Below are positions 16,921 through 19,320 of a stretch of DNA of 64,000 nt, piece by piece. This DNA comes from Nitrososphaerota archaeon (GTDB lineage Archaea > Thermoproteota > Nitrososphaeria > Nitrososphaerales > Nitrosopumilaceae). Made by a program: the position numbers and the translations under genes. Each line of letters opens with the position of its first letter. The first letter of the stretch is position 1. The notes beneath the pieces were generated by a model. That model was not told the DNA's origin and did not search any database. It saw only the letters and a list, made by a program, of their open reading frames with translations. Location of the stretch: the NCBI GenBank assembly GCA_028867755.1, contig JAGWFT010000001.1, positions 598,727-662,726 on the forward strand, given 5' to 3'.

Positions 16921-18222
16921 ATGACATACGATTATCTCATTGAGATTAGACCAATTATAGAAAAATACAGGTTAAAGGGAAAAACTACGTCATTAAAACA
17001 CAAGCTTGGGTTAAGAAAGACAACCCGAGTTCCACATCTAACACTAGTATACAATTTCATCCCAAAAATTCCAGCTTATAAGATTGCAGAGTTGATAAAA
17101 GAAACTGCATCAAAATACAAAGAATTGCGTTTTACCTATTGTGACTTGGATCTGAAAGAAGGAGATAGGGGTCATACGCTTGTCTTCAGAATAGAGCCAA
17201 GCGAAGAGCTCAGAGAATTTCGCTATGAATTATATCAAAAACTCAAGAATTCCATCATAGAGAATCCTAGAACTAAGAAATTCAATGCAGTTTCTAAAAA
17301 TGATTTCTGGTTCCATGCTGCAATAGCCATTCATCAGGACGATAAAAAGGCAGAAAAAATTGATGATTTTATTGAGAATAAAGAAACCCTTCTTGAGAAA
17401 TTTCTTGGCTACTTTAGAGACAACGAAGATAAACATACTTCACACACACGAAGGTCTCTAGTTTATCCAAGTGAAGCTGCAAGAATAACAATACTTAGAT
17501 CTGGTAAAATAGCATACGAATACGACAAATTCATAAACAAAATACTTGGAAGGAGTGAATCTCTTTCATGGAATTATAAAAGATTAACATTAGAAGCTTA
17601 TAGAAAAAAGAAACAAATCGAGTTTATGCCAACTAATGTAAAAGATTCAGCAGGCGAGAACTGGCTTATCTCGGATACTCATTTTGGACATTCTAATATC
17701 ATTGATTTGTGTGCAAGACCATTTGTAGATGTAAAGGAAATGAATAACATACTTGAAAATAATTGGAATGCCACAGTCAAGAAGGAAGACACGGTTTACT
17801 TTCTTGGAGATATTACTCTTGGTAGGGGTGCAAGACCAAAAGATTATTGGTTGAGTAAATTAAATGGCAATATTGTCTATATACGTGGCAATCACGACAA
17901 AGAGATAGAGCATACAAAACTGAGCGAAACAGTAGACTACAAGGGTTATAGGTTTTTACTGATTCACGATCCAAGTGAAAAGCCCAAAGAATGGAACGAC
18001 TGGGTAATACATGGGGATAAACACAACAACAATCTTGGAAAATATCCTCTTATCAATAGGGATCAGAAAACAGTAAACGTGTGTGTTGAACTGATAAAAT
18101 ATAGACCGATTAATTTTGATAAAATAATAGAGATGATAGAGAATAAAAAAGACGGCAATGTTCTTACGTTAGATTACGAATGTAACTGCAACTCCTCGAC
18201 CAAGCAGTATTCAAATCAATAG
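16921..18222 (+). CDS. 2H phosphoesterase fused to a calcineurin-like metallophosphatase
   Basis: A 433-residue protein with two domains. The N-terminal half (about 1-210) has the 2H (LigT/AKAP7-like) arrangement, with the motif H39-L-T-L and a second motif H132-A-A-I in which the usual Ser/Thr is Ala. 2H enzymes act on 2',3'-cyclic or 2'-5' RNA linkages. The C-terminal half (about 245-410) has a full metallophosphoesterase set: D252-T-H254, G296-D297, G323-N-H-D326, H349 and H364-G-D-K-H368. The pair could open a cyclic phosphate and then remove the resulting monophosphate, i.e. heal RNA ends; this is inference. A folded intergenic RNA lies immediately downstream. Confidence 0.82.
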   Translation: MTYDYLIEIRPIIEKYRLKGKTTSLKHKLGLRKTTRVPHLTLVYNFIPKIPAYKIAELIKETASKYKELRFTYCDLDLKEGDRGHTLVFRIEPSEELREFRYELYQKLKNSIIENPRTKKFNAVSKNDFWFHAAIAIHQDDKKAEKIDDFIENKETLLEKFLGYFRDNEDKHTSHTRRSLVYPSEAARITILRSGKIAYEYDKFINKILGRSESLSWNYKRLTLEAYRKKKQIEFMPTNVKDSAGENWLISDTHFGHSNIIDLCARPFVDVKEMNNILENNWNATVKKEDTVYFLGDITLGRGARPKDYWLSKLNGNIVYIRGNHDKEIEHTKLSETVDYKGYRFLLIHDPSEKPKEWNDWVIHGDKHNNNLGKYPLINRDQKTVNVCVELIKYRPINFDKIIEMIENKKDGNVLTLDYECNCNSSTKQYSNQ

Positions 18223-18281
18223 ATTCTGCTGTAATAATTATACTAAAAGTTAATACCTCCGTTTGTACCTACCTTAAGATA

Positions 18282-18372
18282 GGTGAGTGAAGTCTACTAG
18301 GCAACTAGTAGGATCTGGGCTGAAAGGTAGATGCCCGTGGAACGGGATGGAACAAGTAAGCTCAGAGTCACC
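18282..18372 (+). ncRNA. Candidate structured RNA, three-way junction
   Basis: The plus strand folds into: a closing stem GGUGA (18282-18286) with UCACC (18368-18372); a hairpin CUACUAG-GCAA-CUAGUAG (18294-18311) with a perfect 7-bp stem and a GNRA loop; and a long stem UCUGGGCU (18314-18321) with AGCUCAGA (18359-18366), 8 pairs with one G-U. The last stem encloses hairpin CCCGU-GGA-ACGGG (18334-18346). A weaker hairpin, ACCUA with UAGGU (18267-18284), precedes it. The GNRA loop and the G-U pair favour the plus strand. It lies between the 2H-phosphatase fusion and DUF3800 genes and runs over the DUF3800 stop codon. I cannot assign a family; a remnant of a group II intron domain I is one possibility. 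Confidence 0.6.
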
Positions 18373-19060
18373 AATTAATTCTATTATGCCAATCCCACTG
18401 GTCTTTGTGCTTTATCTTCTCCTTGATTAAATCATAATATCTATTGTCTAGTCTCTCAGATTTAGCAAAAATACATCCTGCTATGTAATCTGCAATTTGC
18501 AAGCAAACGTCATCTCGGGAGTCAGAATGCTTGATTTTTACTGTAATATCACCTTTGAATTGTCTATCCTTCTTCGCATAGGATATCTTTCCCTCACAAT
18601 ATTCGTTAAAATGCTTGATCGCTTTTTGAGATAAGCTCCTATCTATCGTATAATGAATTTCGTTGTATGGAACCCATGGTTTCAAATATGAATTGACAAT
18701 AGTGTTGATTACGTAATCTACAGCTAAGTAATTGTATAGTATAGGCTGGTTTCCTTTCAAATTATCCTTAACACTATCTTTCATTATGACCACAGTGCCT
18801 AGGGACAGATCAAATGACTTGATCTTTCTTAGGAATCTCTCACGAGTTGTATGGGCATCATTTGAAAACTTGAATTCTTCAGACTTGCCTCTAATCTTGC
18901 GTCTTGTATTGGTGTTTTTCAATAACCTACGTACTTTATTGCGAATAAACAGAGGTGTATCATTTATCATGATAACGTAACTTAGAACAAAGGATTTTGT
19001 GGATTGTTGAGAAAATCCTAGATCTCCAGCCTCATCCACAAACACATTCACTACAGGCAA
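18368..19060 (-). CDS. DUF3800 protein (predicted RNase H-like fold)
   Basis: A 230-residue protein with the DUF3800 hallmarks: an N-terminal VFVDEAGDLGF (Asp9, Glu10) and a C-terminal DDVCLQIADYIAGCIF. The acidic residues at equivalent positions are proposed metal ligands of an RNase H-like nuclease fold. The family is frequent in phages, plasmids and genomic islands of bacteria and archaea; its biochemical role is not established. It is convergent with the 2H-phosphatase fusion gene, and its last codon lies within the folded RNA candidate. Confidence 0.82.
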   Translation of the reverse strand: MPVVNVFVDEAGDLGFSQQSTKSFVLSYVIMINDTPLFIRNKVRRLLKNTNTRRKIRGKSEEFKFSNDAHTTRERFLRKIKSFDLSLGTVVIMKDSVKDNLKGNQPILYNYLAVDYVINTIVNSYLKPWVPYNEIHYTIDRSLSQKAIKHFNEYCEGKISYAKKDRQFKGDITVKIKHSDSRDDVCLQIADYIAGCIFAKSERLDNRYYDLIKEKIKHKDQWDWHNRINW

Positions 19061-19223: not shown

Positions 19224-19320
19224 GCCGGGGTCGCCTAGCCTGGTAGGGCGCGCGCCTGGAAATGAAAACCATAAAGCGCGTACTCGCAAGGGTCCGAGAG
19301 TTCAAATCTCTCTCCCGGCG
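19224..19320 (+). tRNA. trnS: tRNA-Ser(GGA) with a short intron
   Basis: Acceptor GCCGGGG (19224-19230) pairs with TCCCGGC (19313-19319), and G19320 is the discriminator. D-stem GCCT/GGGC, anticodon stem CGCGC (19251-19255)/GCGCG (19276-19280), and T-arm GAGAG-TTCAAAT-CTCTC. The anticodon GGA is at 19258-19260. The long variable arm ACTC-GCAA-GGGT is typical of tRNA-Ser. The anticodon loop has 20 instead of 7 bases, so an intron of about 13 nt lies at the usual 37/38 position (about 19262-19274). UGG (19257-19259) can pair with CCA (19269-19271) to form a relaxed bulge-helix-bulge. CCA is not fully encoded. It stands at the right border of the accessory island. Confidence 0.92.

Follow-up and report, generated by a model that had tools for sequence, protein, structure and literature searches.

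A DUF3800-X RNA and its convergent DUF3800 gene in a Nitrososphaerota archaeon

Between a phosphatase fusion gene and a DUF3800 gene of a Nitrososphaerota archaeon lies a short, strongly folding segment of DNA. This raises the question of whether the segment encodes a functional RNA, and if so, what such an RNA might do beside a DUF3800 gene. The window analysed here is the whole stretch of 64,000 nt that contains the segment. A first-pass annotation had proposed a functional RNA, possibly new, that was associated with mobile elements or defence, or was the remnant of a group II intron.

Family identity and fold

At the sequence level, the segment at 18281–18373 is a member of a catalogued family, Rfam RF02984 (DUF3800-X). 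The covariance-model match is full length (model positions 1–73) and scores 41.9 bits, above the gathering score of 38.2, with an E value of 1.6e-5 for the whole 64 kb window. In addition, a DUF3800 gene adjoins the segment, and the consensus stems display compensatory changes. The match above the gathering score and the covariation in relatives support the proposal of a functional RNA, but the novelty claimed for it does not stand, as the family is already in Rfam. A visual resemblance is all that speaks for a group II intron remnant. Searches with group II models gave no match, either across the window at the gathering score or within 18200–18450 at E ≤ 1; the segment matches another family, and the RNA comes with a promoter of its own and a constant protein partner. 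The intron origin is therefore given practically no credence.

The closed three-way junction described in the first-pass annotation was recovered, with all four stems in place (Table 1). When 18279–18379 is folded, i.e. from the 5′ end predicted by the promoter, the minimum free energy (MFE) structure is exactly this junction (−34.7 kcal/mol; z −4.34), and none of 200 shuffles folds equally well. Folding of 18260–18380, the range originally proposed, gives a z of −2.5 and an MFE structure in which the closing stem is swapped for an upstream hairpin. The window RNA has the same three stems as the RF02984 consensus (P1–P3), and P2 encloses, besides P3, the conserved unpaired stretches GAAAGGTAGATG and ATGGAACAAGTA. 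It differs from the consensus in an added hairpin between P1 and P2 that is common to its lineage, and it is this insertion that makes the junction three-way. The added hairpin covaries, with compensatory forms CTACTGA/TCAGTAG in one relative (L007) and CTACTAA/TTAGTAG in two others (L008 and L022). At the fourth pair of P1, 20 of the 38 distinct RNAs have C-G and 17 have U-A.

Table 1. Features at and around the DUF3800-X RNA (window coordinates)
Feature	Position	Strand	Basis or remark
2′-5′ RNA ligase-like (2H) + calcineurin-like metallophosphatase fusion gene	16921–18222	+	Directly before RNA; RNA-end-processing look
A-rich BRE-like stretch AAAAG, before TATA box	18245–18249	+	Sequence
Putative TATA box TTAATA, −31 to −26 from RNA 5′ end	18250–18255	+	Hexamer position across relatives
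DUF3800-X small RNA (RF02984)	18281–18373	+	Rfam 41.9 bits, E 1.6e-5; fold z −4.34
P1 5′ arm GGTGA (partner TCACC, 18368–18372)	18282–18286	+	Rfam alignment, pair counts, covariation, MFE fold
Extra GNRA hairpin CTACTAG-GCAA-CTAGTAG	18294–18311	+	Insert columns relative to Rfam consensus
P2: TCTGGGCT (18314–18321) with AGCTCAGA (18359–18366)	18314–18366	+	Rfam alignment, pair counts, covariation
P3, within P2: CCCGT-GGA-ACGGG (18334–18338 with 18342–18346)	18334–18346	+	Rfam alignment, pair counts, covariation
P1 3′ arm TCACC	18368–18372	+	Opposite strand holds DUF3800 stop codon TGA, 18370–18368
DUF3800 gene (PF12686), 230 aa, predicted RNase H-like nuclease	18368–19060	−	Pfam E 5.8e-13; pLDDT 91.5
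tRNA gene, 97 nt	19224–19320	+	Rfam 39.6 bits; missed by ARAGORN

Strand, promoter and the convergent gene

The strand of the RNA was assessed by the classes of mismatch in paired positions. With registers fixed on Watson-Crick pairs alone, the pair cells of the 38 distinct RNAs comprise 570 Watson-Crick, 70 G-U, 11 A-C and 71 other combinations, A-C being the class that would be tolerated if the RNA were the minus strand. These counts support the plus strand as the RNA strand. In the MAFFT alignment (A2), RNAs that lack the insert had their P1 5′ arm in the wrong place, and pairs were therefore counted on a stem-anchored register and, separately, on the insert-free RNAs, a set in which covariation of the X-type RNA is also present. 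Exact TATA-like hexamers concentrate at −31 to −25 (21 of 31 matches in 35 non-redundant loci), and this pile-up at a fixed distance points to an independent small-RNA gene that starts at the closing stem. The minus-strand alternative, i.e. a fold in the 3′ UTR of the DUF3800 mRNA (minus-strand z −3.1), was rejected on the G-U/A-C counts and the promoter position.

The RNA and the DUF3800 gene are convergent, and the stop codon of the gene is within the 3′ arm of P1. In the genus of the window and in other near relatives the two overlap by exactly 6 nt; the value ranges from −2 to +9 in most remaining loci and is −13 in one (L093). The host genome has a single copy of the RNA and a single DUF3800 gene. 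In one set of 10 RNA-bearing genomes, the window's own included, all have a DUF3800 match at the RNA, one of these being broken. The nearest relatives of the protein are found in Thaumarchaeota MAGs, one of which is labelled Candidatus Nitrosotalea. In two loci (L190/L231 and L238) DUF3800 is in two frames, by a stop or a frameshift, behind an intact-looking RNA, which may represent recoding or decay.

Close relatives with different flanks have homology limited to promoter, RNA and DUF3800 gene, a block of ∼0.85 kb. Of the relatives, just the nearest (L010/L132) was seen to have the 2H fusion gene next to the pair, and the fusion gene is thus not considered part of the module. To the left of ∼19172 most congeners have a sequence unlike that of the window, and many of them keep the tRNA-like gene at 19224, which is perhaps intron-bearing or long-armed. 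The comparison with congeners revealed no precise empty insertion site.

At the protein level, DUF3800 is predicted to be an RNase H-like metal-dependent nuclease. The nearest solved folds to its AlphaFold2 model (pLDDT 91.5) are RNase HII and RNase H2 (1eke, E 2.8e-6, TM ∼0.5). A comparison of 25 X-type and bacterial proteins shows no variation at D9, E10, G12, G15, Y109, Q188 and D191, and D9 E10 and D191 provide the conserved acidic residues of an RNase H-like fold. RNase HII, the closest solved fold, also has a DE(A/S)G-type motif in common with DUF3800, but at a TM of ∼0.5 the likeness is structural and does not extend to the sequence profiles. Pfam returns DUF3800 alone, with no match to the RNase HII profile (PF01351), and hhalign gives a probability of 0.3 per cent; homology at the sequence level was rejected, as the profiles do not align. 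A predicted RNase H fold and association with Cas12a2 and with ncRNAs have been reported for DUF3800 (PMC10910872), and DUF3800 genes are found in some type VI-F and V-A2 CRISPR loci (PMC12669027).

Distribution and related RNAs

In all counts related genomes are taken separately, and MAG binning may misplace some loci (e.g. L156, Acidobacteria). For the RNA, 48 RNA-X loci were compiled. A convergent DUF3800 gene is intact in 20, broken in four and absent in 16 (of which four score below gathering), and eight are cut by a contig end. Thus, half of the 40 loci not so cut (20) have a broken or absent gene. The solo RNA copies keep the fold and often the promoter. Conversely, only one locus (L154) was seen without the RNA among the nearest proteins, and there the DUF3800 C-terminus is altered. 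Loss of the gene apparently precedes loss of the RNA, which is expected if the nuclease is costly without its RNA, but a relic of 72 nt is also more readily detected than a reading frame that is still intact. At some of these loci the RNA might function by itself, or persist as a relic.

Three well-folded DUF3800-X RNAs (L018, L024 and L025) have no DUF3800 gene nearby and are neighboured by HepT, PIN-like and AbiEii genes. That the RNA is the tail of a varied toxin cargo, as such neighbours of orphan RNAs might imply, is weakened by the DUF3800 C-terminal remnants that several orphan RNAs carry. At three other loci (L019, L098 and L101, from two genomes, one of which has two such ends) the contig ends exactly 49 nt past the RNA, which may point to a repeated, multi-copy element collapsed in assembly.

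A protein search with one genome per species yielded 78 DUF3800 loci, and in ∼60 of these an RNA of the same plan is found at the convergent position. RF02984 at gathering accounts for 24, DUF3800-V for one (L173), matches below threshold for two, an X model made here for four, a bacterial-type model for 25 (19 of them seeds of that model), and weaker matches for ∼4. A descriptor consisting of a 5-bp stem, GTAA and a second stem, which was drawn up after some of the sequences were known, was run on 81 antisense 3′ regions, including three from viral contigs, and matches 31 of them; control matches are 0 of 79 on the gene strand, 0–3 per shuffled set and 35 of 3814 background windows. The RNA model used alone on 22 whole genomes found five further copies, four of which adjoin DUF3800.

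The bacterial type, termed group B, has the plan P1-GTAAK-(T)CC-P2-inner hairpin-P2′-P1′, and is likewise convergent to DUF3800 with a promoter of its own. It differs from DUF3800-X in the inner hairpin and in the promoter, which is sigma-70-like; the best −10 hexamer starts at −12/−13 of the first stem base in 15 of 25 loci (mean score 9.9, compared with 8.05 in shuffles). In the bacterial-type alignment (A4), 98.9% of cells are paired, a value inflated by the choice of members partly by P1/P2 pairing. This choice hardly affects the spread of pair types; two-sided changes occur at 12 pairs, and covariation is 0.579, versus 0.189 in shuffled and ≤0.128 in slid alignments. Group B RNAs directly behind DUF3800 on the minus strand, with an inner hairpin GGGG..CCTC, were observed in L157, L160, L163, L166, L172, L176 and others. 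A search of ten loci (eight of group B) against Rfam 15 at E ≤ 10 gave no match with the strand and extent of the RNA at its site; the one overlapping match in L163, sno_ncR3 with E 6.2, is at chance level. The other bacterial loci were scanned at the gathering score, a scan that covered loci other than L192, L194, L197 and L201. DUF3800-V (RF02964), seen in L173, is found at the same position, behind DUF3800 and convergent to it, and has a closing stem followed by GTAAG, but is a separate and longer Rfam family (96 positions).

The recurrence of the two-gene arrangement across bacteria and archaea suggests that the nuclease is kept with its own partner RNA. It is tentatively proposed that the X, V and undescribed bacterial and archaeal DUF3800 RNAs form one ancient superfamily, marked by a closing stem, GTAAG and a TCC stem, with an obligate convergent RNase H-like nuclease partner, and that the pair would represent a new RNA-regulated defence or toxin–antitoxin system.

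Proposed function and comparison with known systems

Sequence analysis establishes, as far as it can, the family membership, strand and promoter of the RNA, its fixed convergent overlap with DUF3800, the co-occurrence of the two, and the recurrence of the plan in distant DUF3800 loci. Taken as a whole, the best explanation is probably a discrete DUF3800-X RNA gene that forms a module of cognate RNA and nuclease. That the RNA is a discrete partner of DUF3800 is considered likely. It would be transcribed from its own plus-strand promoter, end head-on in the 3′ end of the minus-strand DUF3800 gene and fold, and DUF3800 may bind the folded RNA as its cognate partner. The bound RNA might restrain or license the predicted nuclease, as an antitoxin or a defence-nuclease cofactor, such that the pair would act like an RNA-antitoxin/nuclease-toxin or defence module. 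That the RNA holds the nuclease in check is a possibility held with some reserve, the direction of regulation being conjectural. Head-on transcription through the overlap might also place the nuclease mRNA under antisense control.

The association with defence made in the first-pass annotation is plausible and gains partial support from the predicted nuclease partner and from bacterial pairs in type I restriction-modification operons. DUF3800 and its RNA lie within such operons in L177, L183, L192 and L194; hsdM is directly upstream of DUF3800 in L177, L192 and L194 and downstream of it in L183, and in L192 and L194 the downstream gene is hsdS. In a set of 93 neighbour proteins the commonest family is that of HsdM-type methylases (four), followed by integrases (three). 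Most of the immediate neighbours of the pairs, however, are ordinary genes.

Three other functions have been weighed. The RNA could be mainly a cis-acting antisense RNA or a double-sided terminator for DUF3800, with a fold that serves stability alone. The convergent overlap at the stop codon and the T-rich stretches downstream of many DUF3800 RNAs are consistent with this, but a terminator would need neither the conservation seen in unpaired stretches nor the compensatory changes of the inner pairs, the promoter is precisely placed, and RNAs without the gene still have the fold and often the promoter; this function is rather unlikely. Perhaps RNA and DUF3800 are instead a minimal mobile or homing element in which the RNA serves mobility. 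Such a cassette would fit the sporadic distribution, the differing flanks among close relatives, the variable spot next to a conserved tRNA-like gene and the several copies in some genomes. However, terminal repeats or a target duplication have not been demonstrated, there is as a rule one copy per genome, the shared block has no transposase, and horizontal transfer explains the pattern equally well. Mobility as the role of the RNA is thus quite improbable.

A guide or scaffold function, by which DUF3800 would find or cut nucleic acid with the RNA in an OMEGA/TnpB-like or crRNA-like manner, is suggested by a conserved structured RNA adjoining an RNase H-like nuclease and by the DUF3800 genes of some class 2 CRISPR loci. 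It is less likely because no hypervariable guide segment was seen; conservation of RNA and promoter extends throughout the promoter-RNA-gene block, and the RNA is convergent to the gene, its 3′ end directed into the gene and not out of the module. A guide function is accordingly regarded as quite unlikely, and the module of cognate RNA and nuclease is preferred.

In the literature considered, the 2017 motif paper of Weinberg and colleagues not included, no described function for DUF3800 RNAs was found; compared with that same literature, the anatomy of the RNA, i.e. promoter, convergent overlap, DUF3800 co-occurrence and a bacterial branch, is new here. Strand, start site, partner gene and a bacterial arrangement with RNAs absent from Rfam make this a concrete two-component system. 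The ∼0.85 kb pair is of a size that can be cloned to ask whether the RNA controls the nuclease, and it would bear on why DUF3800 accompanies some class 2 CRISPR systems.

The pair can be compared with two known systems. The OMEGA/TnpB guide RNA shares a strand with its nuclease gene, overlaps the 3′ end of that gene and continues into a variable guide, whereas the DUF3800 RNA is on the opposite strand and has no variable guide segment that could be seen. In type III toxin–antitoxin (ToxIN-like) systems, a tandem-repeat RNA is encoded upstream on the toxin strand. The DUF3800 RNA is, in contrast, single-copy, convergent and downstream, with its own putative promoter. Nevertheless, both have a nuclease gene beside a small structured RNA that could restrain the nuclease.
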